From assembly GCF_016722925.1 (NCBI RefSeq), contig NZ_JAEQNC010000014.1, positions 1-64,000 on the forward strand: a stretch of DNA of 64,000 nt. Reading direction: 5' to 3'. This document shows, in pieces, positions 3,162-27,756 of the stretch (its first letter is position 1; every line of letters begins with the position of its first letter). The position numbers were made by a program, and so were the translations under genes. The stretch is from Phytoamicus setariae (GTDB taxonomy: Bacteria; Pseudomonadota; Alphaproteobacteria; Rhizobiales; Rhizobiaceae). The notes beneath the pieces are model-generated. The model had not been told where the DNA came from. It did not search any database and worked only from the letters and a program-made list of their open reading frames with translations.

Positions 3162-3162
3162 C

Positions 3163-8199: not shown

Positions 8200-8215
8200 T
8201 TGACCGTTTGGTAAA
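8200..8215. promoter_or_regulatory. RutR-like operator between hydC and its TetR regulator
   Basis: The 16-bp palindrome TTGACCGTTTGGTAAA matches the E. coli RutR consensus TTGACCANNTGGTCAA at all but two defined positions. It lies in the divergent region between hydC and the RutR-like gene. A near copy (on the minus strand TTTACCGTTTGATAAA) lies upstream of preT at 27741-27756. The match to a known consensus plus its repetition at a second gene set of the same pathway makes an operator likely. Confidence 0.75.
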
Positions 8216-8304
8216 CATTGCAATTTCTGACGCCGCACTCAAGTCGAAAAAGAAAAGATACTTACATTTTTCGGACAGGGGTGAAGACGGGAGCATCCGA
8301 TTTC

Positions 8305-8946
8305 ATGGCGATACCCAGGGCAGCACGGACACAGCGGCGAACCCGCATCCAGGAAGAGAAGGAAGAGAAGATTCTCGAGGCTGCCCTCGATGTGTTTTCC
8401 ATGCATGGTTTCCGGGGGGCGACCATAGACCAGATCGCCGAAGTTGCCGGCATGTCCAAGCCGAACCTGCTCTATTATTTCCGGACAAAGGAGGCAATGC
8501 ACCGGGCGCTGATCGAGCGCGTGCTGGATACCTGGCTCGATCCGCTGAGGGAATTCGACGCTGAGGGCAACCCGGAAACGGAGATACGCTCCTACATCCG
8601 GCGCAAGCTGGAAATGGCACGCGACTTTCCCCGCGAAAGCCGGCTGTTTGCCAATGAAGTGCTGCGCGGCGCCCCGTTGATTGAAGGCGATCTCAAGGGG
8701 CCGCTAAAGCAACTCGTCGACGAGAAGGCCGAAGTCATCCGCGCCTGGGCCAAGGCCGGCAAGATTGCCAAATGCGATCCGTACCACCTGATCTTTTCGA
8801 TCTGGTCGACCACCCAGCATTATGCCGACTTCGATGTGCAGGTCCGCGCGGTGCTGGGGCAGGAGAATGCAGGTGACGGGCGTTTCGAGGATGCCGCTCG
8901 CTATCTCGAACAGTTGTTTATCGGCGGACTTGCCATCTCCAAATGA
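8305..8946 (+). CDS. TetR-family regulator, RutR-like
   Basis: Transcription factor of 213 aa. An N-terminal TetR helix-turn-helix (about residues 18-62, with GATIDQIAEVAGMSKPNLLY) is followed by a C-terminal domain like that of RutR/YcdC (RDFPRESRLFANEVLRGAP). RutR of E. coli senses uracil and thymine. I placed the start at ATG 8305, though the ribosome site (GGGAG, about 12 bases away) is weak. It is divergent from hydC and a RutR-type palindrome lies between them, so it likely controls that operon and probably preTA. Confidence 0.9.
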   Translation: MAIPRAARTQRRTRIQEEKEEKILEAALDVFSMHGFRGATIDQIAEVAGMSKPNLLYYFRTKEAMHRALIERVLDTWLDPLREFDAEGNPETEIRSYIRRKLEMARDFPRESRLFANEVLRGAPLIEGDLKGPLKQLVDEKAEVIRAWAKAGKIAKCDPYHLIFSIWSTTQHYADFDVQVRAVLGQENAGDGRFEDAARYLEQLFIGGLAISK

Positions 8947-8949
8947 ATG

Positions 8950-8972
8950 GAGGCGGATCGACGATCCGCCTC
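8950..8972 (+). terminator. hairpin after the TetR gene
   Basis: A perfect 10-bp stem, GAGGCGGATC and GATCCGCCTC with a 3-base loop, begins four bases after the regulator's stop codon. There is no T-tract, so termination may be weak or Rho-assisted. Confidence 0.45.
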
Positions 8973-9001
8973 AGCGAATTGGCATGTCGAAAACCCTCGT
9001 G

Positions 9002-9078
9002 CGTCATGGTCGGGCTTGACCCGACCATCCATAATCCCTTGATGGGTATGGATCCTCGGCTCAAGGCCGAGGATGACG
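9002..9078. repeat. rhizobial palindromic intergenic repeat
   Basis: The element is bounded by CGTCAT and ATGACG and contains two hairpins, GGTCGGGCTTGACCCGACC and a second built on ATCCTCGG/CCGAGGAT. This double stem-loop design is a common dispersed repeat in rhizobial intergenic regions. It lies between the TetR and chemoreceptor genes. Confidence 0.65.
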
Positions 9079-9158
9079 CCGAATGTGTTGCAAGGTTTGT
9101 TAACAAGCTGAGACGGTTAGATGATCCGCCCCAGCAGTTGGAAACCCGGAGGCTGCGC

Positions 9159-11459
9159 TCAGAACTCTTCCCAGTTGTCGTGCGCAATTGCTGCCGATGA
9201 AGCGCCGGATGCAACAGCCAGGCGTGGTCTTGCCGTCGGACGCGCGGACGCGACTGGTGTGCTGCGCACGGCGGCGGTTGGTTGGCTGGCGGACCGCATC
9301 TGGCGCGACGTTTCCTTGAGCATGGCGATCTGGTTGCCCAGGCGGAAATTGCCGATCAGGCTGTGCAGCTGGGTGCTTTCCTCGGCCAGCGAGATGCCTG
9401 CGGCGTTCATTTCCTCGACCATCGCCGCGTTCTGCTGTGTGGCCTGGTCCATGTGGTTGACCGCGGTGTTGACCTCGGCAAGCCCGACGGATTGCTCCTG
9501 GGCTGCGGTGGCAATGGCATCCATGTGCTCATTGATGGTCTGAACCAGGGCCTCGATGGCGGTGAGGCCTTCGCCTGTACCGTTGACCAGCTTGACACCT
9601 TCTCCCACTGCCGCTGCCGAATTCGAGATCAGCGATTTGATTTCCTTGGCGGCATTGGCGGAGCGTTGCGCCAGTTCGCGCACTTCCTGAGCGACGACCG
9701 CAAAGCCCTTGCCCGCATCGCCGGCACGCGCTGCCTCGACGCCCGCGTTGAGGGCGAGAAGGTTGGTCTGGAACGCGATTTCGTCGATCACGCCGATGAT
9801 CTGGCCAATCTGGCGGGACGATTGTTCGATTTTTTCCATTGCCGAGACTGCATCACGGACGATGGTGCCGGATTGATCGGCCGTCGAACGTGCCGTTTGC
9901 GCGACCTGACGGGCTTCGCCGGTGCGCTTGGTGGTGGCAACGACATTGGAGGTGATCTGCTCGAGTGCAGCAGCCGTTTCTTCAAGCGCCGCGGCCTGCT
10001 GCTCGGTGCGCTTGGCAAGGTCGGAGGAGGCGTTGGAGATTTCCGCGCTGCCGGAATTGACCGACGATGCCGAACGGCCAACGGCGGTCAGGGCGTCGCG
10101 CAACTGCTGGACGGAGGCGTTGAAATCCATCCTGAGCGGCTCGAACTGCTCGGCGAAGCGCTCGGTGATCTCGCAGACCATATCGCCAGCGGCAAGCTGA
10201 CGGAGGCCCGAGGCGAGGGCGCCAGTCGCCTGTGTCAGGCGCTCCTCGGCTTCTGCTTCGGCGCGGCGTTGCATCTCCACGCGGTCACGTTCGGCCTGTT
10301 TGCGGCTTCGCTCAGCCTGATGTTCGAGGTTGCGGTTCTGGATTGCCGCGTCGCGGAACACGCCGACCGAGCGCGCCATGCCACCGATCTCGTCCTTGCG
10401 GCCGGTGTATGGAATGGGCTGGTCGGTTTCACCGCCAGCCAGAGAGGTCATCCGGTCACCGATCGAACGAATGAACTGCGACAGCGTATGGGCAACATAG
10501 GTGCTGAGCGCGATGGACGCGACGACAACAGCGGCAAGGATGGACAGCAGTGTCACGAGGTGCGCAAATGCTGCGGTCAGCGATGCATCCATGGTGGCTG
10601 CGATCCGGTCGCCGGTTTCGTTGAGCAGGCCTGCCACCAGCGTGCGCCGTGCAATATTGGCCGCAACCCACTTTTCAAGTTCGCCAGCCGGGGCCGCATA
10701 CGTGTCGTTCTTGGCGAAATCGGCACGGAAGCGCTGGATCATCTTGCCTTCTGGTGTTTCCCAGAAGGCGTCGTACCGGGCAAGGATGTCTTGCGACGCG
10801 GATTCGCGGAACGGGTGCTCGAATGCATTCGCCATCAGGCTGCCGCTCAGGAACATCGTATAGCCGGATTGGTTCAACTGTCCGGACTGGATGTATTCCA
10901 CGCCCACCCGGTTGAACACCTGAAAACCGTCGTTGACCTGCATGAATGCGTAGTAGCCGGCAGTGGAGCGCGAGAGCGTGCGGTCCTCGGTCATGACGCC
11001 GACGCGCCGCGTAACCTCGGAGCTCGCGCTGGAAATCGGCAGCAGGATCTCCAGGGCCAGGAGCGGCTTTGCCACGCCGGCATCGACAGCACTACGGTAC
11101 TCCGGCAGTCGGGTGAACTTGGCTTGCAGATTTTCAATCGCCGCATCAAGACCAGTGTCGAGTATGCCGCTCGCCCTGGTCGCTTCATAGGCAGCAAGAA
11201 TGTCGGCATGGCGTGCGTTCACTTCCTTGCGCCTGGCGATCAGTTCTTCGCCCTTGGCTGCACCTTCGACCGGCATGAGGAGGATAAGTTCGCCGGCGCT
11301 GTGGACGATTTCCTGAAGTGCTGCGGCACCCTGTAATGTCGAGTATTCCTTGTAGGCGCTCCAGCTCAGCATGCCGCCGAGAGCGACAATGGCGAGCATC
11401 GGAACGATCGCAAGTATGGCGACCATCTTCCGAAAGGACAGATTGGATAGTATTTTCAT
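9159..11459 (-). CDS. methyl-accepting chemotaxis protein with nitrate-sensing-like (NIT) domain
   Basis: Chemoreceptor of 766 aa. A membrane helix at about residues 12-32 is followed by a ~270-residue periplasmic helical region resembling the NIT domain, a second helix at about 302-325, a HAMP domain with a long linker, and the cytoplasmic signalling domain with tip sequence [20 protein letters not shown]. The protein ends in NWEEF, matching the xWxxF pentapeptide that tethers CheR methyltransferase (and CheB) to receptors, so it is probably a high-abundance, adaptation-competent receptor. The ligand is unknown; NIT-type domains can bind nitrate or nitrite. Monocistronic. Confidence 0.93.
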
Positions 11460-11540
11460 GAATGCAACTTACCTGTGCGGCGTATTCTGAGCTTAGGATC
11501 ATTTTTGCTGATTGCGGCTCGAATTCAGTTTCATCGCCGC

Positions 11541-11557
11541 TCGAGTATCATACTCGA
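11541..11557. promoter_or_regulatory. palindrome upstream of the chemoreceptor gene
   Basis: TCGAGTAT-C-ATACTCGA is a perfect inverted repeat with 8-bp arms, 82 bases upstream of the receptor start codon. It could be an operator or a hairpin. No matching regulator is recognisable. Confidence 0.35.
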
Positions 11558-11710
11558 AGCATCGAAGACGGGCGCCTTCGCTGCGCCGGTGGTATCGGGA
11601 GATCCACCTGCGACTTCCTTGTCTTCAATTCCGCTAAATAAGTTATGATCGTATTAAATCCCGCCATGCCGCGTGTGGCGAGATATCGGGGGGCATGTGT
11701 TCTTATGTTG

Positions 11711-12697
11711 TTAATCAGGCAATGCTGCCATGATGGCGAGCCCGAGTGCGGTGACGCAGGCGCCGGCAAGCACCGTCAAACTGACCCACCCGTGGCCTAG
11801 CACGCCTTCCAGTAGGATGATGAAGCATGGCGTCAGATAGCCATAGGCCAGCACTTTGGACGCTGGCAGCCGCAACGAGGCAAACTGTAGCAGCAGCAGG
11901 GTTATGATCGTCGTGACAATGGCCAGATAGGCAATCGCTGCCCAGGCAGAGACCGGCAGGGTGGAAATGCCGGCATGCACGAGCGAGGGCAGCCCGGGCA
12001 GAAGAAGCCAGATGCAGGTCGCGGCCACCGTCCAGAAGCTGAATGCAAAAGGATTTTCGCCGCGATTGAGCTTTCGCAGCAGCGGCGCATAGGCGGCGTG
12101 ACATACGACCCCGATGAAGAAGATCAGTTCGCCCCTGCCGACGTCGAAGGCGAGGATCGCGTCGACATTGCCCCGAAAGATAACCCACACAGCACCGACA
12201 GCTGCAATGACGAGGCTGAGAAGCACGGTGGCGCGCGTCGTCTGCCGCATGGCAAGATAGGCAAAGCCGGCACTGAGCAACGGCATCAGGGTAAACACAG
12301 CCCCGGTTGATACCGGATCAGTGAACTCGAGCGCCTTGAACATGGTGAACATGTAGATGGCCATCAGGCCTCCCAGAAGCACGAAGCGCCACGGCGCCTG
12401 GGGCAGCTGCAAGGGCACTTTGAGGACCAGCGAGCCGAACAGGCCCATTGCGATGACGCTTGCGATGTAGCGTAGCGCATTGATGGTTTCGGCGGATGCC
12501 GCCGCCGTTGCCAGCTTGCCGAAAGAAAACGAGCCGGCGATCAGGAAGGCAAACAGGAGCATCGCCAGATGTGCTCTCAACTTCTCGTGGCCGGTTGCAT
12601 ACTGATGGTGGCTTGGTTTGGAACTGCTTGCTTGCTGCTTCAAGGACGGCCTGCTTTTCAACTCATCGGGTGTGCTGTCGTGTGCCAGCCGATACAT
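11711..12697 (-). CDS. EamA/DMT-family transporter
   Basis: Inner-membrane protein of up to 328 aa with about ten predicted helices in two EamA repeats (RhaT/YdcZ-like drug/metabolite transporter superfamily). A polar ~45-residue N-terminal segment precedes the first helix (LAMLLFAFLIAGSFSFGKLA), and no ribosome site supports the first ATG at 12697, so the true start may be the ATG near 12562. Substrate unknown; such proteins usually export amino acids or other metabolites. Confidence 0.85.
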   Translation of the reverse strand: MYRLAHDSTPDELKSRPSLKQQASSSKPSHHQYATGHEKLRAHLAMLLFAFLIAGSFSFGKLATAAASAETINALRYIASVIAMGLFGSLVLKVPLQLPQAPWRFVLLGGLMAIYMFTMFKALEFTDPVSTGAVFTLMPLLSAGFAYLAMRQTTRATVLLSLVIAAVGAVWVIFRGNVDAILAFDVGRGELIFFIGVVCHAAYAPLLRKLNRGENPFAFSFWTVAATCIWLLLPGLPSLVHAGISTLPVSAWAAIAYLAIVTTIITLLLLQFASLRLPASKVLAYGYLTPCFIILLEGVLGHGWVSLTVLAGACVTALGLAIMAALPD

Positions 12698-12847
12698 AAA
12701 CGAATAGCGGCTTCTAGCACGGCATAAGGTGTTGTGCAGCCTGCAAGGCTCGGCAATCTACATTGTTCCTTTTCAGAATCATTACTTTAGAATATAATTA
12801 CAATCAGTTTCCGGGTCGCCGGGAACATCTTTGACTTGGAGGACAGC

Positions 12848-13147
12848 ATGGACATTTCTGCACTCATCGCTGAACTCATCGGCGGTATCGTAGGGGGAAC
12901 CGCAGGTGGAAAAATCATCAAGGATTCGGATCTCGGCAGCATAGGTAACCTGATCACCGGCGCAATCGGCGGTTTGGGTGGGGGTACTATCCTTAGCTCA
13001 ATCCTGGGGCAGGCTGCGGCAACCACCGCGACTGCAGGATCGATGGACATCGGCGCCCTTGTCAGCCAACTCGTCGGTGGCGGCGTTGGCGGACTGGTTC
13101 TTCAGGTGATCGTCGGCCTGATCAAGAACAAGATGATGGCTAGGTAA
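12848..13147 (+). CDS. small glycine-rich protein with internal duplication
   Basis: Protein of 99 aa, very rich in Gly, Ile and Leu. The two halves are related: MDISALIAELIGGIVGGTAG at residue 1 and MDIGALVSQLVGGGVGGLVL near residue 63. The alternation of Gly and hydrophobic residues suggests membrane insertion or self-assembly, like glycine-zipper proteins. ATG at 12848 has GGAGG five bases upstream; the TTG at 12836 lies upstream of that site. Similar small proteins occur in other rhizobia as far as I recall, without known function. Confidence 0.8.
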   Translation: MDISALIAELIGGIVGGTAGGKIIKDSDLGSIGNLITGAIGGLGGGTILSSILGQAAATTATAGSMDIGALVSQLVGGGVGGLVLQVIVGLIKNKMMAR

Positions 13148-13167
13148 GGCTCTTGCCGAATGAATTC

Positions 13168-13195
13168 GCCGTGCCGCCGAATATAGCGGCACGGC
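13168..13195. terminator. hairpin between convergent genes
   Basis: A perfect 10-bp stem (GCCGTGCCGC and GCGGCACGGC) with an 8-base loop lies between the ends of the glycine-rich gene and the SMR gene, placed to terminate transcription from both sides. There is no long T-tract. Confidence 0.55.
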
Positions 13196-13525
13196 TTAAT
13201 GGGTGACGGACTTCGATAGAAGATTGATGATCAACACGCCGGCGACGATCATGGCAAGGCCGATGATCGCTGCGAGATCCAGCTTCTGGCCAAAAAGCAG
13301 CCAGCCCGCCATGGCGACCAGAACGATACCTGCGCCCGACCACACCGCATAGACGATGCCGACAGGCATCGTCCGCGTGACCAGCGACAACAGAAAAAAG
13401 GCGACGGTGTATCCGGCTACCGACAGTAGGCTCGGCCAGAGGTTGGTAAAGCCGTCTGTCTTGGCAAGCGCCGATGTTGCGATGACTTCTGCGACGATTG
13501 CCGCTGCGAGATACAGGTAAATCAT
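13196..13525 (-). CDS. small multidrug resistance (SMR/EmrE) family transporter
   Basis: Four-helix membrane protein of 109 aa, the standard SMR length. The conserved membrane Glu is present in AAAIVAEVIATSALAKTDGF, followed by the GIVYAVWSGAGIV motif of helix 3. SMR proteins work as dimers exchanging protons for cationic drugs, polyamines or guanidinium. ATG at 13525 is chosen because the family begins there; the open frame extends 54 codons further without family likeness. Confidence 0.88.
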   Translation of the reverse strand: MIYLYLAAAIVAEVIATSALAKTDGFTNLWPSLLSVAGYTVAFFLLSLVTRTMPVGIVYAVWSGAGIVLVAMAGWLLFGQKLDLAAIIGLAMIVAGVLIINLLSKSVTH

Positions 13526-13691
13526 GAAAGCCTCATACCGTCCCGCTCGGTAGGGCGCTAGTCTCCGATCGGCAAATTGTTTCGCGGGTTCGTTCTGCCA
13601 GCAAAAACATGCCTTTCGGACAGGGAATTGTGATCTTGCGCGACATGGCCATCGCCCGCTATGCGTTGTGGCCCCGGAGGACACCACGCAG

Positions 13692-14459
13692 ATGAGACTG
13701 AAAGTACGGATAGCAGCGCTCTATGAAGGCAAATCCGCGCTGGCCCATCGCTTCCGTTACATGCTCTTGTGCATCGATGTCCTGTCGGTGCTGTTTCTCG
13801 TCGTGAGCACCTTCTTTCTCGATCAGGTCTGGGTGAAATGGGTCGATGTCGCGTTCGGCATCTATATGGCTCTCGATTATCTGGCGCGGTTCTGGATCGC
13901 CGGGCGAAAGACCTCGTTCGTCATTCATCCCCTCAACATCACCGATCTCGTCGCCACTATTTCGTTCCTGGCGCCTCTGATGGGGGGAGGTTTCTCGTTC
14001 CTGCGCAGCCTTCGCATCCTGCGCCTGCTCCGCTCGCCCAGGGTGCAGGCCAAGCTCGGTCAGGACTTTCCAGCCTTCCGGCAGCACCAGGACATCGTGC
14101 TGAGCGCTGCCAATCTCGTCATATTCCTATTCGTGATGACCGAACTGGTGTTCGTCACGCAGGTGGGCATCAATCCGCATGTCAATAACTTCCTTGATGC
14201 GATGTACTTCACTGTGACGACGCTGACCACGACCGGGTTCGGCGATATCACCTTGATAGGCGAACTCGGCAGATTGCTGTCCATCCTCATCATGGTGTTC
14301 GGGGTGTCGCTGTTTCTGAGGCTAATCCAGACGATGTTCAGGCCTTCGAAAGTTCGTTACACGTGCCAGCAATGCGGCCTGTTCCTGCACGAAGCAGATG
14401 CTGTTCACTGCAAGCACTGCGGTGCGGTTCTGAACATTCCCTCGGACGGGAGCGTGTAG
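13692..14459 (+). CDS. voltage-gated K+ channel-like protein with C-terminal zinc ribbon
   Basis: Protein of 255 aa, ion_trans/Ion_trans_2 family. Four helices of voltage-sensor type come first, with an Arg-rich S4-like segment (RSLRILRLLRSPR, about residues 112-124), then a pore helix and K+ filter (TVTTLTTTGFGD) and the last helix. The C-terminal ~40 residues form a putative zinc ribbon with two CxxC pairs (CQQCGLF and CKHCGAV). The ATG at 13692 has GGAGG 11 bases upstream; a GTG at 13668 is the alternative. Expected in the inner membrane, possibly gated by voltage or by metal/redox state through the ribbon. Confidence 0.85.
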   Translation: MRLKVRIAALYEGKSALAHRFRYMLLCIDVLSVLFLVVSTFFLDQVWVKWVDVAFGIYMALDYLARFWIAGRKTSFVIHPLNITDLVATISFLAPLMGGGFSFLRSLRILRLLRSPRVQAKLGQDFPAFRQHQDIVLSAANLVIFLFVMTELVFVTQVGINPHVNNFLDAMYFTVTTLTTTGFGDITLIGELGRLLSILIMVFGVSLFLRLIQTMFRPSKVRYTCQQCGLFLHEADAVHCKHCGAVLNIPSDGSV

Positions 14460-14521
14460 ATCGGGCGGAGCGAAGCTCGTGGCAATCGACTTCAAACGAA
14501 ACTCCAGACATTCCGGACCGC

Positions 14522-15313
14522 ATGCCTGACATCACGTCCCTGACAAGCGCCGTCGAAGCGGCTCTTCCCACGCAATCGATCGGCCTACTGTTCGCTCTGC
14601 TGCTGACGTTGTTCGTAGCGGGCCTGGCGCGCGGATTTTCCGGTTTTGGTGCGGCGTTGATCTTCATTCCGATCGGCAGTGCGCTGGCGGGGCCGGGCGT
14701 CGCAAGTCCGCTGCTGTTGATAATCGACACGGTAGCAGCGGCGACGCTCTTACCGAACGCGGCCGCCAAGGCCGACAAGAAGGATGTTACGGCAATGTCC
14801 TTCGGCGCACTTCTCACAGTTCCGTTGGGCGCGGCGGCGCTGGTCTATGTCGATCCGGTCTCGGTGCGATGGGCCATCTCCATCACAGCCATTTTCTTCC
14901 TGTGTTTTCTGATTTCCGGCTGGCGCTTCAGAGGCCCTCCGTCCGCATTCGCCGCTGTTTTGGTAGGAGCCACGGCCGGCCTGTTCAGCGGCGCAGCGCA
15001 GCTTGGAGGGCCGCCGGTCGTGGCATACTGGCTTGGCGGTCGCGCCAACATCGCCACGGTGCGGGCCAACATCGTTCTCTACTTTGCTGTCTCGTCGCTT
15101 TTTACCATAGTGAGTTACGTCATCGCCCAGTTGATAACCGCGCAGGTCTTGCTGCTGGCACTCGTCAGCGCGCCGTTTTACGCCGCTGGACTTTATCTCG
15201 GGGCCAAATCCTTTGGGCTTGCCAGCGAAAGGACCTTTCGCATGGCATCCTATACTCTGATCGGCATTGCCGCAGTTGCGAGCCTTCCGCTTGCAGACCA
15301 CTTGCTGCGGTGA
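14522..15313 (+). CDS. TauE/SafE family (sulfite exporter-like) membrane protein
   Basis: Membrane protein of 263 aa with about eight helices in two repeats; the motif LARGFSGFGAALIFIP near residue 35 and GLFSGAAQLGGPPVVAYWL are characteristic of TauE/SafE permeases, which export sulfite, sulfoacetate or other small organic anions. ATG 14522 begins at the family start; the longer frame overlaps the K+ channel gene by about 100 bases and is rejected. The gap to the channel stop is 62 bases, so read-through is possible. Confidence 0.85.
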   Translation: MPDITSLTSAVEAALPTQSIGLLFALLLTLFVAGLARGFSGFGAALIFIPIGSALAGPGVASPLLLIIDTVAAATLLPNAAAKADKKDVTAMSFGALLTVPLGAAALVYVDPVSVRWAISITAIFFLCFLISGWRFRGPPSAFAAVLVGATAGLFSGAAQLGGPPVVAYWLGGRANIATVRANIVLYFAVSSLFTIVSYVIAQLITAQVLLLALVSAPFYAAGLYLGAKSFGLASERTFRMASYTLIGIAAVASLPLADHLLR

Positions 15314-15685
15314 CTATTCAGCCGGATCCGGCTGCCAGAGATCGATCCGGTTCCCCTCCGGATCGTAGAGCGTGGCGAACCTGCCATTCGGATAGACTTC
15401 GGGATCGATGGTAACCTCTATACCTGCATTTCGAAGCTGTTCGACCATCCGCTCCAGATCCCGGACGCGGAAATTGATCGCCCAGTTCTTGTCCGGCGAG
15501 CCGAAATAATCCGATTGCTGTTGGAACGGAGCGAAAACCGTGATTCCGGCGGTTTGGCGCCAGACTGGGCCGTCATAGTCCTGGGCTGCCGGATTGATAC
15601 CCAGATGGGTAAAATACCAGTCGCCCAAACCTTGCGGATCGCGAGCTCTGAAGAACAAGCCTCCAATGCCGGTGATTCGTTCCAA
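15314..15685 (-). CDS. VOC (glyoxalase/bleomycin-resistance) family protein
   Basis: Protein of 123 aa with a single vicinal-oxygen-chelate domain (starting ITGIGGLFFRARDPQGLGDW, ending LYDPEGNRIDLWQP with the terminal Glu-type ligand region). I chose TTG at 15685 because GAGGAC precedes it at good spacing and the domain begins there; the longer ATG frame adds 26 residues without likeness. Substrate unknown. It is convergent with the TauE/SafE gene, with stops directly adjoining. Confidence 0.8.
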   Translation of the reverse strand: MERITGIGGLFFRARDPQGLGDWYFTHLGINPAAQDYDGPVWRQTAGITVFAPFQQQSDYFGSPDKNWAINFRVRDLERMVEQLRNAGIEVTIDPEVYPNGRFATLYDPEGNRIDLWQPDPAE

Positions 15686-15757
15686 AGCAAAGTCCTCGCG
15701 CCGTCTATCCCACCAAACTTTGTTGCAACTTGATACCAAGTGTGCACTGCCGCGTTC

Positions 15758-15785
15758 TTGCAAAAGACGCGAACACGACTACATT
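15758..15785 (+). promoter_or_regulatory. candidate sigma-70 promoter for the 24-codon gene
   Basis: TTGCAA (15758-15763) and TACATT (15780-15785) with a 16-bp gap resemble -35 and -10 boxes, 38 bases before a start codon that has a strong ribosome site. The -10 match is only four of six. Confidence 0.4.
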
Positions 15786-15822
15786 AATACCATGTTCAAC
15801 GTAACGAAAGGAAGGTGATCCA

Positions 15823-15897: not shown

Positions 15898-15951
15898 CCA
15901 GCCTTCCTCGGGTCGTTGGAGGCCCACGCCTGCAAGAGGCCAAAATTCATG

Positions 15952-15978: not shown

Positions 15979-16020
15979 GCTATGCTGAGACAGGCTCAGC
16001 AGCGCGCTTCACATGAATGC

Positions 16021-16055: not shown

Positions 16056-16064
16056 GAGTGCGAC

Positions 16065-19386: not shown

Positions 19387-20720
19387 TCGACTTTCCTGAT
19401 TGTCGGCGTTCCGGCCACATCCAACCTTATTCGTCCTCGGCCGACGTGAACGATTTGAATGGGAAATCCCTTGGCTTCAAGCCGGCGGCGCAGAAGCAGA
19501 AGACGAGTTTCGAGGTTGTCCTTGAGATCGGGTAATCTGAGCGCTTCCGTGAGCCGGATCTCTCGGTTGGTGAATTCGCTTCGCCCTTCCGAAATCGACC
19601 GATCGATCAAGTAGGCCAGCAGGCGGCCAGCCACCCCTTTGATCACATAATCGTTGCCGATAAAAATGCTGTCATCAAAGGCGTGATGCGTGATGGCGAT
19701 CGGCTCCCCGTACGATGTGGAGGGCGCCTGGCGGGACGGTGCGGCGATGGTTTCGAATGCTTCTGTTTCACTGAGCGCGAGGGCCGCTGCGGTCTGGCGT
19801 CCCAGGATTTCGATAGCAGCCACGTCCTCGTCGCGAAAAGCCAGTCGCTCGTTGCTTTCGACAAAGATAACTCCACGAACAGCCTGACGAACGATGATGG
19901 GAACCGCCAGCTGGCTCATGGCGTCGGCCAGACGGGGCAGGGCTATGGTGCGCGCCTCGTTCTCGTCCGTACCAGAGGTATGAATGATTGCTTCGCCCAT
20001 CCTCCGTACGCGGCTCATGTCGCTCACCTTGATCGGGCGTCCATGCGCGGCAGCGGAGGCGATCAGGTCGTTTTCGCCGCGCACTTCCGAACCAAGGCCC
20101 GAACGTTCGTAACCGATGCTGCCGACCGTGGTCAGCACGCCGGCGGCAGGATCGTTCAGAAGAACCAATGCGTGCTTGCAAGAAAGCTCGCTGCTGAGGC
20201 CCGCGAGCAATGCATCCATGATGCCGCCAACATCGGTTGCACGGTCAATGGCCTCTGCGATGCGCGCAACAGCGGTTAGTTCAGCAGGGCGGCGGTTGGC
20301 AACCTCGTCGCGGATCTCCGCATTGGATTTGGCGATCCTGATCTCGTGGACCCGAAAAATATCAGCGCTTCTCAGCCGCATGATCCCCGCCATGCCCACT
20401 TGGGCGCTGCTGGCCTTCAGATGCAGGGCGATGTGGTCGAAGAGCACGCCGTTGTCCACTGAGCGTTGGAATTCGATATCGAGCGTATATTGCGTACCAT
20501 TGTTGCCATCGACCAACATCAGCGTGGCGTGGGGATTGGCCCGCACATTGGCTGCGGTCTTAGCAAAGAACTGGTTCGAGAGCGCTATATGATCGTCGTC
20601 TATCATCACCACATGTGAAAGATAGGAAATATTCGGCGTACCGTCCGCCGACACTGTGGCGATGATCGACGGAATGACGCCCTCGAAACAGGCATGCAGG
20701 TCGGCAAGCGCCACTCTCAT
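19383..20720 (-). CDS. PPOX-fold/GAF protein with C-terminal winged-helix-like domain
   Basis: Protein of 445 aa with three parts: a flavin-reductase-like PNPOx split barrel (about 1-140), a GAF domain (about 160-315), and a C-terminal region (about 350-445) beginning FIGNDYVIKGVAGRLLAYLI that resembles a winged-helix DNA-binding or response domain. Start ATG 20720 overlaps the stop of the upstream PPOX gene (ATGA). Together these suggest a cofactor- (FMN, F420 or haem) or redox-responsive sensor; the function is inference only. Confidence 0.75.
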   Translation of the reverse strand: MRVALADLHACFEGVIPSIIATVSADGTPNISYLSHVVMIDDDHIALSNQFFAKTAANVRANPHATLMLVDGNNGTQYTLDIEFQRSVDNGVLFDHIALHLKASSAQVGMAGIMRLRSADIFRVHEIRIAKSNAEIRDEVANRRPAELTAVARIAEAIDRATDVGGIMDALLAGLSSELSCKHALVLLNDPAAGVLTTVGSIGYERSGLGSEVRGENDLIASAAAHGRPIKVSDMSRVRRMGEAIIHTSGTDENEARTIALPRLADAMSQLAVPIIVRQAVRGVIFVESNERLAFRDEDVAAIEILGRQTAAALALSETEAFETIAAPSRQAPSTSYGEPIAITHHAFDDSIFIGNDYVIKGVAGRLLAYLIDRSISEGRSEFTNREIRLTEALRLPDLKDNLETRLLLLRRRLEAKGFPIQIVHVGRGRIRLDVAGTPTIRKVD

Positions 20721-21187
20721 GACGGTCGTCCCGCAGTTCTGCCGGCATTCGGGCCTGGTGTCTGCACATAGATTTCGGACACTGCCAGCGTCGCCACCAT
20801 CGCATCGCGATTGGTGAGCCATGGTGCGGCAATCATTCCCGGTACGCCCAAGTCGATGAGTTCGGCGCGAATGGCATCGATGAAGTGGTCTGAGCGACGA
20901 TAGTCGTCGGCATCGGGAGAGCGGAGCCAGGCCTTGCCTTTCATTTGATAGGTCACATAGTCCGACGGACAGACGAAGGTTGCCGCCAAACGGCCGGTGT
21001 CGTGGATATTGGCAATCGTTTCAGGCCATTGCCAGCTCGAGATCGTTATGTCGATATGCCCGCCCTCTGAGGGCAGGAACACGCCAACCGCCCTGGCAAT
21101 TGCCGGACGGCACTCTGCGCCTGCGGTGCCGACGATGATCATCAGCGGCTTTTTCAGAAACTGCTTCAGGCCTTCATCAAGTTGCAA
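20717..21187 (-). CDS. pyridoxamine 5'-phosphate oxidase-like (PPOX) protein
   Basis: Protein of 156 aa with a single split-barrel domain (IIVGTAGAECRPAIARAVGV near the start; WPETIANIHDTGRLAATFVC). Such proteins bind FMN, F420 or haem. It is coupled to the GAF-containing PPOX gene by an ATGA overlap, so the two probably act together. No more specific family is recognisable. Confidence 0.8.
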   Translation of the reverse strand: MQLDEGLKQFLKKPLMIIVGTAGAECRPAIARAVGVFLPSEGGHIDITISSWQWPETIANIHDTGRLAATFVCPSDYVTYQMKGKAWLRSPDADDYRRSDHFIDAIRAELIDLGVPGMIAAPWLTNRDAMVATLAVSEIYVQTPGPNAGRTAGRPS

Positions 21188-21323
21188 GCCAATGCTCCCT
21201 CGGAAACTCTCTCTCGTTTAGCAAAGATTTAGGAAGAAGGCATGCGTCTTTTAGGCACCATTTAGGAACGCGGATTTCGAATAAAAGATACCAGCTCTCC
21301 ATTCGCAACAATGGAGTGAACCC

Positions 21324-22862
21324 ATGCAGAGTATCATCCCCCATATCATGCCGGCTAGCGCAGTGGCCGTGATCGGTGCCGGGCCGAGCGGTCTTGCTGC
21401 TGCACGCTGGCTTGCCCAGCACGGCTTCGAACCGGTGGTTTTCGAAGCTTCCGGCCGCGTCGGCGGCCAGTGGAATACCGGCGCTGAACATAGCGCCACC
21501 TGGCCCGGCATGCGGACCAATACCAGCCGGGTGATGACCGTCTTTTCGGACCTCGATTATCCCGAGGGGACGGCGACCTATCCGCGGCACGACCAAGTGC
21601 AGGCTTACCTTGAAGCCTACGCGGAGAAGTTCGGTCTCGCGCGTTGCATAAGGTTCAACTCCGCCGTCGAACTGCTTGATCGTGCGCCGGGCCATGGGTG
21701 GCTTGTCCGCTCGCGCCAGAATGGTCTGGAAAAGGCGGAGATTTTCGTTCACGTCGTCGTGGCCACAGGCCGTTTCGTCGAAACCAGCATGCCGGAAATT
21801 CCCGGTCTCGAGAGCTTTGTTGGATCGCTCGGTATCTGCCACACCAAGGACTATCGTGGAGCGACGGTCTATCGTGGCAAGTCTGTCCTGATGGCCGGCT
21901 GCTCGATCAGTGCGCTGGAAATCGCCTCCGACATCGCGTTCGGCGGCGCAGCCGGAGTTCTGGCGAGCTATCGCAAGCAACGCTATGTGCTGCCCAAGCT
22001 GATTGCGGGCGTGCCGACCGAGCATGTGATGTTCACCCGCGCGGCTGCAATGGCTGCCCGTATGTTGCCGCCCGATATTCTCGCGGCCGGCATGCGCGAC
22101 AAGGTCGTGTCCGTTTCGGGAAGCCCGGCACAGTTCGGTGCGTTCGAGCCGGATGCCAACATCTTTGCCGCTGGCATTACCCAGTCTCAGCATTTTCTGC
22201 CGGCAGTGGCGGAAGGCCGGATCGGCGTGAAGCCCTGGATCGAGCGCATTGATGGACGCACGGTGCATTTTGCCGACGGAAGCCGCGCCGCGCCGGACGG
22301 TATCGTCTTCGGCACCGGCTATAAGCTCTCCCTGCCGTGGCTCGCGCCAGAGATCGGTAGGCTGCTCGCCATCGATGGCGGGCATATCGATCTGCATGAG
22401 CATACCTTCCATCCGGATCTCCCGGGGCTGGCCTTCCTCGGTCTTTATGACGCAGTCGGTCCGACCTTCCCGGTGCTTGAATTGCAGGCTCGGTGGGTTG
22501 CTTATGCGCTGTCCGGCATACGGTCGATGCCGTCGCGCGAAGCGATGCAACAGGGCATCGAACAGGCGCGCGCCGGGCGCGGCGGCCCGACCGGCATTCC
22601 AATGAACATGCTGGCCATGCTGTTTGCCGGCAATGCAGGTGTCGAACCCAGACTCGGGAACTGGCGGCAGATAGAGAGAGCCCTGCTTGCCGGGCCGCTC
22701 TCTCCGGCTTCGTTCCGGCTGGACGGGCCTGATGCCGTGGCCGATGCTGCGGAACGGGTGAAGGCGGCAGCGCGTGCGTTCGGCTGCATCACCAGCGAGG
22801 ACTACACCTCCGAGGAAGGCTTGATGCGCGCCATCGTCCTGCCGAACATGCAGGCGGCCTGA
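21324..22862 (+). CDS. flavin-containing monooxygenase (FMO-like)
   Basis: Protein of 512 aa. The FAD fold GAGPSGLAAARWL is near residue 14, then EASGRVGGQW. An FMO-like fingerprint (FVGSLGICHTKDYRG) is near 169-183, and the NADPH fold (LMAGCSISALEIA) lies at about 190. The predicted reaction is NADPH- and O2-dependent oxygenation of N- or S-containing or ketone substrates. ATG 21324 has GGAGTG upstream. It is a single-gene unit; the substrate is unknown. Confidence 0.88.
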   Translation: MQSIIPHIMPASAVAVIGAGPSGLAAARWLAQHGFEPVVFEASGRVGGQWNTGAEHSATWPGMRTNTSRVMTVFSDLDYPEGTATYPRHDQVQAYLEAYAEKFGLARCIRFNSAVELLDRAPGHGWLVRSRQNGLEKAEIFVHVVVATGRFVETSMPEIPGLESFVGSLGICHTKDYRGATVYRGKSVLMAGCSISALEIASDIAFGGAAGVLASYRKQRYVLPKLIAGVPTEHVMFTRAAAMAARMLPPDILAAGMRDKVVSVSGSPAQFGAFEPDANIFAAGITQSQHFLPAVAEGRIGVKPWIERIDGRTVHFADGSRAAPDGIVFGTGYKLSLPWLAPEIGRLLAIDGGHIDLHEHTFHPDLPGLAFLGLYDAVGPTFPVLELQARWVAYALSGIRSMPSREAMQQGIEQARAGRGGPTGIPMNMLAMLFAGNAGVEPRLGNWRQIERALLAGPLSPASFRLDGPDAVADAAERVKAAARAFGCITSEDYTSEEGLMRAIVLPNMQAA

Positions 22863-22885
22863 TCAGCGTCGCGTCACTTAAAAAT

Positions 22886-22919
22886 GGCGGCTGCGGCAGA
22901 ATTTACTGACGCAGCCGCC
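22886..22919 (-). terminator. terminator of the sigJ operon
   Basis: A perfect 10-bp stem (GGCGGCTGCG and CGCAGCCGCC) with a 14-base loop lies between the convergent FMO and sigJ genes. On the minus strand it is followed by ATTTTT, so it terminates sigJ; it may also work on the + strand. Confidence 0.7.
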
Positions 22920-22936
22920 CGGTGCTTTGAGGCCAC

Positions 22937-23794
22937 TCAGTGCAAGTGCTTCAGCTTGTCCGGGTTACGCACGACATAGATGGCGACGACCTTGCCGTCT
23001 TCGATTTCAAGCGCGGTCGTTTGCAGTTCGCCATCCGCTTCTCGCGTCACGAAGCCGGGAAGCCCGTTGACGAAGCCGGTGTGTACGAGATGTGAGCCGT
23101 GCTTGATGAACAGCGCTGCCAGATGCTCGTGCACATTCATGACGGCTTCGAGGCCCAGGATCGGCTTGATTGCCGCAGAACGCTTGCCGCCGCCATCGGC
23201 ATGGATACTGACATCGGCTGCAAGCATTGCACCGAGCGCCTTCATGTCGCCGCTGCGTGAGGCCGTAAAGAAGGCCGTCGCCAGTTCAAGGCCGTGCTGT
23301 TGATCCACCTTGAAGCGCGGCCGTGCTTCTCGGACGTGGCTGCGGGCACGTGCTGCAAGTTGACGGCAGGCGGCCGGATCGCGCTGGATGGTTTCTGCGA
23401 CCTCTTCGAAACCCAGCCCAAAGACATCGTGCAGTAGAAAGGCCGCCCGCTCGAGCGGAGAAAGGCGTTCGAGCGCCAGCATCAGTGGCAAGGTGACGTC
23501 CTCCTCCTGTTCCTCTTCAACGACAGGATCGGGAAGCCACGGCCCGACATAGGTCTCGCGCTGTCGCCGCGCGGATTTGAGCTGGTCCAGGCAGAGTCGG
23601 GTGACGGTACGGCGCAGGAACGCTTCGGGTTCCCTTACCGAAGGGCGGTCAGCCCGGATCCAGCGGATGAACGCCTCCTGCACCATGTCTTCGGCATCGG
23701 CAACGGATCCCAGCATCCGATAGGCGACCCGTATGAGCTTGGGACGCAGCGGGTCGAATGTCGTCGCTGCGTCTTCCTGGCCGAACCCCGTCAT
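22937..23794 (-). CDS. sigJ: ECF RNA polymerase sigma factor, SigJ-like with SnoaL-like domain
   Basis: Protein of 285 aa. Region 2 is around RMLGSVADAEDMVQEAFIRW and region 4 around LPLMLALERLSPLERAAFLL to the HTH near 150. The C-terminal ~110 residues form a SnoaL-like domain typical of the SigJ (ECF41) group, where it controls sigma activity. The start ATG at 23794 overlaps the stop of the AhpD-like gene by one base (TGATG). ECF41 sigmas are typically paired with a carboxymuconolactone decarboxylase-like protein, exactly as here. Confidence 0.9.
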   Translation of the reverse strand: MTGFGQEDAATTFDPLRPKLIRVAYRMLGSVADAEDMVQEAFIRWIRADRPSVREPEAFLRRTVTRLCLDQLKSARRQRETYVGPWLPDPVVEEEQEEDVTLPLMLALERLSPLERAAFLLHDVFGLGFEEVAETIQRDPAACRQLAARARSHVREARPRFKVDQQHGLELATAFFTASRSGDMKALGAMLAADVSIHADGGGKRSAAIKPILGLEAVMNVHEHLAALFIKHGSHLVHTGFVNGLPGFVTREADGELQTTALEIEDGKVVAIYVVRNPDKLKHLH

Positions 23795-24264
23795 CAGGCC
23801 GCCGTCGCCTGGGCCGCCTTCGCCGCCGCTGGATCGATCCACAGGCCGAAACCGACAGCGAGACGGTTCCACCCATTGATGACGTTGATCATAAGCGTGA
23901 GCTTCACCTGTTCCTCCTCGGTGAACTGGTCCTTGAGCGCCTCATAGGCATTCTGATGCGCGTGGCCTTCCGAAAGCCGCGTCAGGGCTTCGGTCCAGCC
24001 TAGTGCGGCCCGTTCGCGAAGGGAATAGCAAGGAGCCTCGCGCCAGGCCGACAGAAGGTAGATGCGCTGTTCCGTCTCGCCCTTCGCACGGGCTTCCGCC
24101 GTGTGCATGTTGATGCAGTTGGCGCAACCGTTGATCTGGGACGCGCGGATTTTGACCAGTTCGATGAGTGAAGGTTCCAGGCTGGCAGCAGCGGCCATGG
24201 ATGTGCCCATCCAGCTCTTCATCAGGGCAGGGGCGGCGGCGAAGGGATCGAGCTTGGCAGTCAT
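23794..24264 (-). CDS. AhpD-like carboxymuconolactone decarboxylase family protein
   Basis: Protein of 156 aa with the AhpD-type redox motif GCANCINMHTAEA (CxxC plus His) around residues 45-58. Members act as alkylhydroperoxidases. It is the gene just before sigJ and overlaps it by one base; such enzymes are usual targets and partners of ECF41 sigma factors. A promoter of its own sigma factor is therefore likely upstream, but I could not identify it. Confidence 0.9.
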   Translation of the reverse strand: MTAKLDPFAAAPALMKSWMGTSMAAAASLEPSLIELVKIRASQINGCANCINMHTAEARAKGETEQRIYLLSAWREAPCYSLRERAALGWTEALTRLSEGHAHQNAYEALKDQFTEEEQVKLTLMINVINGWNRLAVGFGLWIDPAAAKAAQATAA

Positions 24265-24401
24265 GGGTCAGTCTCCTTGGTTGGTTACGACACCATGACG
24301 AGACAGGAATTGCCGGTGTGACATGCACGGCGAATTTTTTGTGACCGAATTCGCGGGTGCATATTGTAGGTGCATCGCTGTCGCGGTGCTTGCGTGCTGC
24401 C

Positions 24402-24890
24402 CTATTTGAGGTCTGCTTCCTCCACGGTCCGCATTGAGATTATGGGATCACCGGTGCAAACGACATCAACGACGTGGTCGAGGCAGGCCACAGAAAAGTG
24501 GTTGAGTGGACCGGGGTGGTTATCTGTGGCCCAAGTGGCTTCAGCGACGTGATCAAGGAAGCCCGACTTTCGGTACGAGCGAAGAAGCTTCCCGCCGAAT
24601 TCCTCGCTGTAATCCAGAGCATAGGACTCGTTACGGGTGGAAAATGCCACGTAGTTCTCGAATATGATAGTGAATGCGTAAAAACCAGCCAGTGTGGTGA
24701 TCGCTCTGCCCGGCCCTAGGATTTCATCGATCGCCGATGAACCTGTTGAGATCGGGCCATACTCTCCCACTGATCTTGCTTCAAAAACCACGAGCTTGAG
24801 GTCCAGGGCATGGTCACCACGTCCGAAACTTTCGAGAGACACATAGACGCAAGAATCCAGTTTCTGACGCATATCAGACTGATCAGTCAT
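24402..24890 (-). CDS. hypothetical protein
   Basis: Unrecognised 162-aa protein without signal peptide or membrane segment. It is acidic and well mixed in composition, with segments ALDLKLVVFEARSVGEYGPI and FENYVAFSTRNESYALDYSE that look like beta-strands of a compact domain. Base composition is slightly lower in GC than its neighbours. Stand-alone on the minus strand between the AhpD/SigJ pair and preA. No function proposed. Confidence 0.75.
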   Translation of the reverse strand: MTDQSDMRQKLDSCVYVSLESFGRGDHALDLKLVVFEARSVGEYGPISTGSSAIDEILGPGRAITTLAGFYAFTIIFENYVAFSTRNESYALDYSEEFGGKLLRSYRKSGFLDHVAEATWATDNHPGPLNHFSVACLDHVVDVVCTGDPIISMRTVEEADLK

Positions 24891-24954
24891 TGGATGCCAT
24901 CCAAAAAATTCTCGGCCGGTATCATCGCGTTACCAACTCATAGAATCAAAATGA

Positions 24955-24973
24955 AACCCCCGTCACCGGGGGT
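24955..24973 (-). terminator. terminator of preTA
   Basis: AACCCCCG-GTG-ACGGGGGTT-type hairpin (24955-24973) lies 26 bases after the preA stop codon and is followed on the minus strand by a T-rich stretch (TTCATTTTG). Confidence 0.7.
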
Positions 24974-24998
24974 TCTGAAGTTTAAGAGGTTGCGAAAC

Positions 24999-26312
24999 CT
25001 ACTCCGCGGCCTGCTTGGCCATCGGGTTGTTCGGATGCGTGGTCCAGTTGGCGTACTGGTCGGAGACGACCTTGCCGGTGCGCTTGTCCATGCTGCCCGC
25101 TGCAAGCGGCACCATGGTGATGCAGTTCTCGACCGGACAGACGTCGATGCAGAGGTTGCAGGCGACGCATTCCTCTTCTATCACTTCGAAATGCCTGACG
25201 CCGTCGAGCATCGAGGTGATCGCCTGGTGGGACGTGTCCTCGCAGGCGATGTGGCAGCGGCCGCACTTGATGCAGGCATCCTGATCGATCTGGGCCTTGG
25301 CGATGTAGTTGAGGTTGAGATATTGCCAGTCGGTGACGTTGGGCACGGCCTTGCCCTTGAAATCGTCGAGCGTGGCATAGCCCTTCTCGTCCATCCAGTT
25401 TCCGAGGCCCGAGATCATTTCCTCGACGATCTTGAAGCCATAGGTCATGACGGCGGTGCAGACCTGGACGTTGCCGGCGCCGAGCATCATGAACTCGGCG
25501 GCATCGCGCCAGGTTGTCACGCCGCCGATGGCCGAGATCGGCAGGCCGCGGGTTTCGGCATCGCGGGCAATTTCCGCTACCATGTTCATGGCAATCGGCT
25601 TGACGGCCGGGCCGCAATAGCCGCCATGCGTACCCTTGCCGTCGATCGACGGCGTGGGGGAACAGGTGTCGAGATCGACGCCGGTGATCGAGTTGATGGT
25701 GTTGATCAGTGACACGGCATCGGTGCCGGCTTCGTGGGCGGCCCGCGCCGGGCGGCGGACGTCGGTGACATTCGGCGTCAGTTTGGTGATCACCGGCATG
25801 CGGCTGTACTGCTTGCACCAGCGCACGACCATGGCGACATATTCCGGCACCTGGCCGACCGCAGCGCCCATGCCGCGTTCGGACATGCCGTGCGGACAGC
25901 CGAAATTGAGTTCGATGCCATCGACTTCGGTCTCTTCGACCAGCGGCAGGATCGCCTTCCAGGCTTCCTCCTCGCAGGGCACCATGATCGAGGCGACGAT
26001 GGCACGATCCGGCCAGTTCTTCTTGACCATCTTCATTTCCTGCAGGTTGATCTGCAGGGGACGATCAGTGATCAGTTCGATGTTGTTGAGACCGAGCAGG
26101 CGGCGGTCGGCGCCCCAGATGGCGCCATAGCGCGGACCATTGACGTTGACCACCGGCGGGCCTTCCTCGCCCAGCGTCTTCCAGACCACGCCGCCCCAGC
26201 CGGCCTTGAAGGCGCGCTCGACATTGTAGGCCTTGTCGGTCGGCGGCGCGGATGCCAGCCAGAACGGATTGGGGGACTTGATGCCGACGAAGTTGTTTCT
26301 GATATCAGCCAT
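24999..26312 (-). CDS. preA: NAD-dependent dihydropyrimidine dehydrogenase, catalytic subunit PreA
   Basis: Protein of 437 aa. The first ~310 residues are a dihydroorotate-dehydrogenase-like FMN barrel (LNFGCPHGMSERGMGAAVGQ motif), and the C-terminus carries two 4Fe-4S clusters (CIKCGRCHIACED and CVACNLCIDVCPVENC). With PreT it reduces uracil and thymine to dihydropyrimidines, the first step of the pathway completed by hydA and hydC 18 kb away. It is 13 bases downstream of preT, same operon. Confidence 0.95.
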   Translation of the reverse strand: MADIRNNFVGIKSPNPFWLASAPPTDKAYNVERAFKAGWGGVVWKTLGEEGPPVVNVNGPRYGAIWGADRRLLGLNNIELITDRPLQINLQEMKMVKKNWPDRAIVASIMVPCEEEAWKAILPLVEETEVDGIELNFGCPHGMSERGMGAAVGQVPEYVAMVVRWCKQYSRMPVITKLTPNVTDVRRPARAAHEAGTDAVSLINTINSITGVDLDTCSPTPSIDGKGTHGGYCGPAVKPIAMNMVAEIARDAETRGLPISAIGGVTTWRDAAEFMMLGAGNVQVCTAVMTYGFKIVEEMISGLGNWMDEKGYATLDDFKGKAVPNVTDWQYLNLNYIAKAQIDQDACIKCGRCHIACEDTSHQAITSMLDGVRHFEVIEEECVACNLCIDVCPVENCITMVPLAAGSMDKRTGKVVSDQYANWTTHPNNPMAKQAAE

Positions 26313-26325
26313 TGTTCATCCTCCC

Positions 26326-27687
26326 TTACGCAACCGCCGCGGACGATGCACGTCCGGCTGCGAATTGTCGATCAATCGATTCCGCCGCATCGCGACCGTT
26401 GGCGACCGCCGTAACGGTCAGGTCTTCGCCGCCGACAATGCAGTCGCCGCCAGCCCAGACGCCCTCGACAGAGGTTCGTCCTTCGGCATCAACGACGATG
26501 CGTCCTCCCTCCAGTTTCAGTGCGTCGAGACCGGTTGCGTCAAACTTCTGGCCGATCGCCTTGAAGATCTGATCGGCGGCTATCATGCCGACTTCGCCCG
26601 TAGACACCAGCTTGCCGTCCTTGATGGCGGTGTAGGCGACTTCGATGCCGGCCACCTTGCCGTCCTTGCCGATGATCGATTTCGGTGCCAGCCAATGGCG
26701 GATGGTCACACCCTTGGAGGCGGCCAGATCCTGCTCGAATTCCGAGGCGTTCATCTGGTCCTTGCCGCGACGATAGCATATCGTCACCTCTTCCGCACCC
26801 AACAGCTTCGACTGGATGGCCGCGTCGATTGCGGTCATGCCGCCACCGAGCACGACAACGCGCCGGCCGATGCTGACTTCGCCCTTGTTCGTGGCCTGGC
26901 GGAGGTCGGAAATAAAGTCGACGGCATCCTCGACGCCGTCGAGATCCTCGCCATCGACACCAAGCGAGTTGACGCTGCCCAGGCCGACGCCGAGGAACAC
27001 GGCATCGAAATTGGCGGTCAGTTCGCCGAGTGTAAAGTCCCGGCCGAGCGCCTGGCCGATGCGGATCTCGATGCCGCCGATTTCCAGGATGTAATCGACT
27101 TCGCGCTGGGCGATGCTGTCGGTCGCCTTGTAGGCGGCGATGCCGTATTCATTGAGGCCGCCAGCCTTTTCGCGGGCATCGAAGACGATGACCTGGTGGC
27201 CTTTCATGGCGAGGCGGTGGGCGGCGGCGAGGCCGGCGGGACCAGCGCCAATCACGGCGACACGACGATGGGTCGGTTCGGCGCGGGTGTAGAATTGCTT
27301 GTTGGCAGCCATCGCCGCATCGGTGGCGTAGCGTTGCAGGCGGCCGATTTCCACCGGCTTTTCCTCGGCTGTGTTGCGCACGCAGGCCTGCTCGCACAAC
27401 GTTTCGGTGGGACAGACCCGCGCGCACATGCCGCCGAGAATGTTCTGGTCGAAAATCGTCTTGGCGGCGCCGATCGGGTTTCCAGTCGATATCTGCCGGA
27501 TGAACAGCGGGATATCAATGGAGGTGGGACAGGCCGTCATGCAGGGCGCGTCATAACAGAAATAGCAGCGGTCCGAGGCGACAAGCGCTTCATGCCGGCC
27601 GTAGGCCGGATGCAGGTCGGAAAAGTTAGCCTCGATTGACTGTGGGTCCAGTCTGCCTGGACGGATTCCGGGCGCAGGATTGGTCAT
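26326..27687 (-). CDS. preT: dihydropyrimidine dehydrogenase, NAD-linked flavoprotein subunit PreT
   Basis: Protein of 453 aa of the GltD/PreT family. Cysteine clusters for 4Fe-4S centres are near the start (CYFCYDAPCMTACPTSIDIP and CARVCPTETLCEQAC), followed by FAD (VIGAGPAGLAAAHRLA) and NAD(P) (VVLGGGMTAIDAAIQ) Rossmann folds. It passes electrons between NAD(H) and PreA. First gene of the operon; an RutR-like palindrome is 54 bases upstream of its start codon. Confidence 0.95.
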   Translation of the reverse strand: MTNPAPGIRPGRLDPQSIEANFSDLHPAYGRHEALVASDRCYFCYDAPCMTACPTSIDIPLFIRQISTGNPIGAAKTIFDQNILGGMCARVCPTETLCEQACVRNTAEEKPVEIGRLQRYATDAAMAANKQFYTRAEPTHRRVAVIGAGPAGLAAAHRLAMKGHQVIVFDAREKAGGLNEYGIAAYKATDSIAQREVDYILEIGGIEIRIGQALGRDFTLGELTANFDAVFLGVGLGSVNSLGVDGEDLDGVEDAVDFISDLRQATNKGEVSIGRRVVVLGGGMTAIDAAIQSKLLGAEEVTICYRRGKDQMNASEFEQDLAASKGVTIRHWLAPKSIIGKDGKVAGIEVAYTAIKDGKLVSTGEVGMIAADQIFKAIGQKFDATGLDALKLEGGRIVVDAEGRTSVEGVWAGGDCIVGGEDLTVTAVANGRDAAESIDRQFAAGRASSAAVA

Positions 27688-27740
27688 TTTCTACATTCCC
27701 CTTTTGTTTATTTGAAGGGAGCGTAGCAAAGCTTTAAAAA

Positions 27741-27756
27741 TTTATCAAACGGTAAA
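27741..27756. promoter_or_regulatory. RutR-like operator upstream of preTA
   Basis: On the minus strand TTTACCGTTTGATAAA, differing at two of 16 positions from the palindrome at 8200-8215 and sharing its ACCGTTTG core. It lies 54-69 bases before the preT start, a position suited to repression. The repeated match suggests the same TetR regulator controls both operons. Confidence 0.65.

Follow-up and report, generated by a model that had tools for sequence, protein, structure and literature searches.

Two conserved RutR-type operators at separated genes of reductive pyrimidine breakdown in Phytoamicus setariae: a predicted regulon

The DNA considered here is a window of 64,000 nucleotides of Phytoamicus setariae, whose whole genome has 5.6 Mb. 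Reductive pyrimidine breakdown comprises three steps, i.e., those of dihydropyrimidine dehydrogenase, dihydropyrimidinase and an amidohydrolase, and the window carries genes for these steps in two separated groups, hydC-hydA and preT-preA. Two 16-bp sites of closely related sequence (operators 1 and 2) lie upstream of these groups, and a gene for a RutR-like regulator of the TetR family (tetR) lies beside operator 1. The best explanation, with a probability of about 0.88, is that this regulator is a RutR/PydR-type repressor of the reductive pathway, released by uracil, which acts at both operators and also on its own gene. This regulon is well supported and of an already familiar kind. The features concerned are the following:

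8200..8215, + strand: operator 1, TTGACCGTTTGGTAAA, between the divergent genes hydC and tetR
27741..27756, − strand: operator 2, TTTACCGTTTGATAAA, upstream of preT, 53 bp off
8305..8946, + strand: tetR, TetR-family regulator, RutR/PydR-like, 213 amino acids (profiles, PDB RutR 3loc, TetR_C_3)
6808..8058, − strand: hydC, candidate N-carbamoyl-beta-alanine amidohydrolase, i.e., beta-ureidopropionase (NF006769, TIGR01879)
5053..6534, − strand: hydA, dihydropyrimidinase (TIGR02033, 593 bits for a cut-off of 393)
26326..27687, − strand: preT, flavin/Fe-S subunit of dihydropyrimidine dehydrogenase (Fer4_20, i.e., domain II, and Pyr_redox_2), adjoining preA
24999..26312, − strand: preA, NAD-dependent dihydropyrimidine dehydrogenase subunit (NF006183, 726 bits for a cut-off of 335)

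Operators in the genome and in near relatives

A preliminary description of this stretch, made from the sequence alone, had reported two palindromes upstream of genes for consecutive steps of one pathway, sharing 14 of 16 bases and resembling the E. coli RutR consensus. Both 16-mers are found at the coordinates given above, with 14/16 identical bases, and profile searches identify the genes behind them as those of the pathway. The palindromes are imperfect, since only five of the eight base pairs match in each of them (by eye). Compared with the consensus as quoted in that description, operator 1 agrees at 12 of the 14 fixed positions and operator 2 at 10. Operator 1 is 141 bp from the hydC start and 89 bp from the tetR start.

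The same description spoke of a regulon split over 18 kb. This value is approximate, i.e., the operators are 19.5 kb apart and the end of tetR is 16 kb from preA. The tetR-preT distance, 17.4 kb here, ranges from 1.35 to 155 kb in the 57 family genomes where both genes are on the same contig, and the tetR-preA gap can be 93 bp in relative loci. The split is therefore local, i.e., the genes form one cluster whose spacer varies in length.

Within the window, three matches were obtained with up to 3 mismatches, vs. a mean of 0.55 in shuffled sequences, and this number was reached in none of 100 shuffles. The pattern TTKACCGTTTGRTAAA has exactly two exact matches in the 5.6-Mb genome, namely operators 1 and 2. 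When one mismatch is allowed a single further match appears (G000:C7:7689). It was rejected as a further target and assigned to a different conserved element, because the CCG of its left half is not conserved in the genus: TT-N-A-N4-TTGGTAAC is present at −89 to −96 of the start of the same gene in 8/8 other searched genomes of the genus, and these counterparts deviate from the operator pattern by 2 to 4 mismatches. This element (G000:C7:7689-7720; L198-L206), half of which resembles the operator, is located about 90-105 bp 5' of a small secreted-protein-like gene.

Both operators are exactly conserved in 8/8 other searched genomes of the genus. It must be added that each operator is present twice in one of them (G378, 84% complete, contamination 6) and that another (G379) has one additional one-mismatch match. 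For a wider comparison the best 80 of 309 loci were used (Rhizobium, Sinorhizobium/Ensifer, Agrobacterium and kin). The hydC-tetR gap holds TTGACCGNNTGGTAAA in 79/79 relative loci with a hydC match; it occurs as six forms, whose differences are restricted to the two centre bases, as would be expected of a palindromic operator of the TetR type. The upstream region of preT was examined in 48 of the 80 loci (in the other 32, preT is absent from the stretch or cut off). The site is TTTACCRTTTGATAAA in 48/48, at 52-60 bp 5' of the start codon, with the form TTTACCGTTTGATAAA in 47 loci and TTTACCATTTGATAAA, i.e., one change, in the remaining one.

The mean identity of operator 2 is 99.9% vs. 67.4% for the region, and it ranks first among 95 windows of 16 columns (47 aligned preT upstream regions). 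The corresponding values for operator 1 are 96.0% vs. 73.8%, with rank 6 of 231 windows (80 hydC-tetR gaps). When the 80 relative loci were scanned with a palindromic matrix, 80 matches fell upstream of tetR (up to 400 bp), 48 upstream of preT, and 51 elsewhere. As judged from this sequence conservation, the operators are conserved enough to be annotated in near relatives.

The preliminary description had proposed to look for a random scatter of the motif, and for the sites at the orthologous hyd and pre genes of related rhizobia. Both outcomes agree with its interpretation. The motif is not scattered. Among 81 family genomes, TTKACCGNTTGRTAAA has 63 exact matches vs. 3 for the reversed-pattern control, and 45 of these genomes contain at least one. 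Located by coordinates, 34 matches are before preT and 17 before tetR (51/63), and 12 are elsewhere, 2 of the latter preceding further copies or fragments of preT. The orthologous genes of near relatives do carry the sites, and changed forms are met further out. The genes preT and tetR are found together in 63 of the 81 genomes, neither in 11, and one alone in 7.

Three observations concern other sites. (i) In the relative G360, a TTGACCGATTGATAAA site, one of the 12 family matches located elsewhere, stands about 59 bp 5' of a gene for a Bmp/PnrA-like binding protein of an ATP-binding cassette (ABC) transporter (L178 443-1516), a possible nucleoside-uptake target. (ii) The 51 other matches of the matrix scan include TTGACCATGCGGARAA, which is repeated in 11 loci, mostly of Agrobacterium (L093, L113-L116, L118, L119, L122, L132, L145, L161), at 1.6-1.9 kb beyond abcS, and is a possible extra site; it overlaps open frames in the 4 loci of the 11 that were viewed. 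(iii) A perfect 8-bp inverted repeat, GCGCATGG/CCATGCGC, is found at 8093-8113 of the window, 35 bp from the hydC start and about 86 bp from operator 1.

The regulator and its proposed action

The regulator matches the RutR model TIGR03613 with an E value of 1.1e-72 (244 bits, curated cut-off 368) and the RutR model PRK15008 with 222.5 bits (curated cut-off 230). Its match to PDB RutR 3loc (E 2.8e-60) is ungapped over residues 8-209, and 98 of 202 residues (48.5%) are identical to those of E. coli RutR. In the latter, W77, Y97, W167, Q171 and Q179' are placed at uracil and K52 and K62 at DNA, according to passages of PMC10891134. All seven residues are kept in 97/97 aligned sequences, the window regulator included. 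Thus a RutR-like TetR gene does lie beside the first site, as had been proposed.

A tree of 88 rows, whose root is not fixed, places the window regulator in a group of 80 rows (support 100/97). E. coli RutR is outside this group, together with the rutA-linked L240, L249, L251 and L273, two unrelated TetR rows, and L242, a homologue for which no pathway gene was found. This is not a clean group, because the rutA-linked L275 and the unrelated long-branch row own_other_L030 fall inside it; it also contains the tandem paralogues and a second RutR-like protein of P. setariae itself. No RutA above the cut-off was detected in the P. setariae genome (best 162 bits vs. 498), and RutA passes the cut-off in 6 of the 81 family genomes. 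The protein had been inferred to be a RutR orthologue used for reductive breakdown. The link to the reductive pathway and the likeness to RutR are retained, whereas strict orthology to E. coli RutR is too strong a statement, because the scores are below the cut-offs and E. coli RutR falls outside the tree group of the regulator. The regulator is thus best described as a member of the RutR family within a largely reductive-linked line, and that it works like RutR holds as a prediction.

The proposed action is as follows. A dimer of the regulator would bind to operator 1, in the gap that separates hydC from tetR, and to operator 2, upstream of preT. When uracil is lacking, it would block hydC-hydA, tetR and preT-preA, and perhaps also the ABC genes downstream of hydA. 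Uracil or thymine bound in the pocket would release the regulator from the DNA, and the three steps from uracil to dihydrouracil, then to N-carbamoyl-beta-alanine and to beta-alanine, would be induced together. Operator 2 contains TTGATA, followed by 17 bases and then by TACGCT, a block that is partly conserved in relatives. This TTGATA may be a −35 element, which operator 2 would then overlap; the consensus scan called no promoter there.

A first alternative keeps the regulator and changes its mode, i.e., it would be an activator, or would sense dihydrouracil or N-carbamoyl-beta-alanine rather than uracil. Pathway intermediates commonly act as inducers, as is generally known, and E. coli RutR is described as an indirect activator of carAB in passages of PMC10891134. 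On the other side, the five reported residues of the uracil pocket are those kept in all 97 sequences, and an operator 2 overlapping a possible −35 element would suit repression. This alternative is considered unlikely.

A second alternative assigns the operators to another protein, for instance to the second RutR-like regulator of the genome:

G000:C37:213273/213454-214053 (L063 9774-10554; start codon not fixed): second RutR-like regulator, RutR match of 166.5 bits

Apart from the window regulator, no protein of the genome matches RutR better than this one. It retains K52, K62, W77, Y97, W167 and Q171, and ATGACCATTTGGTCAA is found roughly 100-165 bp upstream of it. On the contrary, it has L instead of Q179, and its neighbours are genes for a polyamine-type ABC transporter, a sigma-54 activator, a PAS protein and a GMC oxidoreductase. 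Moreover it is present in only 4 of the 81 family genomes (E <=1e-50, P. setariae included), whereas both the operators and the regulator beside operator 1 occur widely. As a general reader of the sites it was therefore rejected, and the whole alternative is very improbable. Finally, that both sites are chance look-alikes, of which the one-mismatch site G000:C7:7689 gives an example, has a negligible probability in view of the 79/79 and 48/48 relative loci with sites (the first set varying at the centre only), of the excess of family matches over the control, and of operator 2 being the best-conserved of its 95 windows.

More distant relatives

Beyond the near relatives two sets were considered: an outer set of 15 mostly more distant loci with hydC and tetR (L067-L082 without L078), and an order-level set of 38 hand-chosen loci with a regulator homologue, with 10-20 kb per locus. 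Within these 10-20 kb, the neighbours are reductive genes in 27 of the 38 loci, rutA in 5, neither in 6 and both in none. The regulator family thus appears to go with one or the other of two alternative pathways of pyrimidine breakdown. A strong RutR-type palindrome precedes preT in 13 of 14 order-level loci, vs. a shuffle mean of 0.03. With the same scoring, the best 16-mers of E. coli reach 10/12 upstream of rutA-rutR and 11/12 upstream of carA.

Several results weigh against a uracil-released repressor acting at both operators and on its own gene:
(i) the regulator scores under both curated RutR cut-offs;
(ii) consensus scans gave no sigma-70-like promoter at operator 1 or 2;
(iii) 36 of the 81 family genomes are without an exact match to TTKACCGNTTGRTAAA, exact matches only being counted;
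(iv) in the outer set, the hydC-tetR gap gives a match with at best 1 mismatch in 4 loci, 2 in 2 and 3 in 8, and one gap is without a match within 3 mismatches;
(v) in the 9 outer-set preT upstream regions, the best match has 0 mismatches in 1, 1 in 2 and 2 in 6;
(vi) at the order level, a strong palindrome is found before tetR in only 13 of 38 loci (shuffle mean 0.07) and before hydC in only 4 of 15 (shuffle mean 0.03), therefore the generality of autoregulation and of hydC control is not supported.

The commonest form of the preT site in the outer set is TTGACCAATTGATAAA. Several more distant forms, e.g., TTGACCAAATGGTCAA, are nearer to the E. coli type, which suggests that the operator forms of the window have drifted. 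A tentative scheme, for which the odds are rather against than in favour, can be drawn: the RutR-like regulators of the order would form two lines according to the uracil route they control; the operator of the reductive line would have drifted from an ancestral TTGACC-N4-GGTCAA; and the preT copy of near relatives would have become nearly invariant, even at its centre, since it would also serve as a promoter element. Its odds are slightly lower because the unrelated row own_other_L030 lies within the group. Separately, a second RutR paralogue sits between hydC and the first one in L070, L073, L246, L256, L259, L265 and L271. A perfect TTGACC-N4-GGTCAA is found upstream of 4 of the 6 scored paralogues (L061, L246, L256, L259, L265, L271).

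Known systems and neighbouring genes

According to the title of the work by Hidese et al. 2012 (J Biochem 152:341, cited in PMC7332683), the P. putida regulator PydR resembles RutR and represses, in the reductive pathway, the gene for dihydropyrimidine dehydrogenase. Compared by title only, it is by analogy the direct precedent: the window regulator is likewise RutR-like and tied to the gene for this enzyme. An operator at that gene, the use of which by PydR itself is assumed, is present in the 48/48 relative loci examined. The PydR title is silent on the hyd genes.

The likeness to E. coli RutR (PDB 3loc, 4jyk, 6z1b) concerns (i) the family, the ungapped alignment and the residues of the uracil pocket and of DNA contact; (ii) a regulator gene divergent from catabolic genes; (iii) a 16-bp palindrome of TTGACC type and of the same shape, located at the regulator gene and at the targets. 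The differences are that E. coli RutR has the Rut pathway and carAB under its control (according to passages of PMC10891134), that the window regulator is below the cut-offs of the RutR models and in another tree group, and that the window operators have a G at position 7 and a GGTAAA or GATAAA half. Leyn et al. 2016 (PMC5343134, seen in part) predicted RutR regulons named 'pyrimidine catabolism' in 68 genomes of 13 proteobacterial taxa, with taxon-specific substitutions in the RutR motif; the regulon predicted here is of the same kind. A literature search (titles and abstract openings, RegPrecise being outside its scope) gave no account of this regulon in rhizobia; two of the papers that it listed (PMC7685610, PMC9491525) mention RutR and Sinorhizobium. 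The regulon is a precise and testable prediction for the use of uracil and thymine in rhizobia and agrobacteria. The amidohydrolases of this pathway are of industrial interest (PMC10952681); the passages covered of that paper contain nothing on regulation.

The assignment of hydC rests on 700.6 bits with NF006769 (cut-off 452) and 397.5 bits with TIGR01879, a hydantoinase/carbamoylase-family amidase model (cut-off 204); N-carbamoyl-beta-alanine is a candidate substrate proposed from the gene context. In NCBIfam, preT has only sub-cut-off GltD-like matches among those listed. Downstream of hydA the following genes are found:

166..4326, − strand: ABC transporter genes, i.e., NMT1/THI5-like binding protein, two permeases and ATPase

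They are perhaps co-transcribed with hydC-hydA, and homologues of the binding protein and of both permeases are present in 76 of the 80 relative loci. A matrix scan of the window gave no strong site 5' of these genes or of the EamA transporter gene; its next-best matches score 16.1 at 19595 and 11.3 at 46890.

The spacer between the two groups contains genes for a chemotaxis receptor, EamA and TauE transporters, an ion channel, a ligase/exonuclease pair, a flavin-monooxygenase-like protein, an AhpD-like protein and a SigJ-type sigma factor. The EamA-family transporter gene (window 11711-12697), which no strong operator precedes in the window, is also near the regulator gene in some relatives. 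ARAGORN calls a tRNA-Pro of 100 bases at 25470-25569, inside preA and on the same strand, which is most likely a false call.

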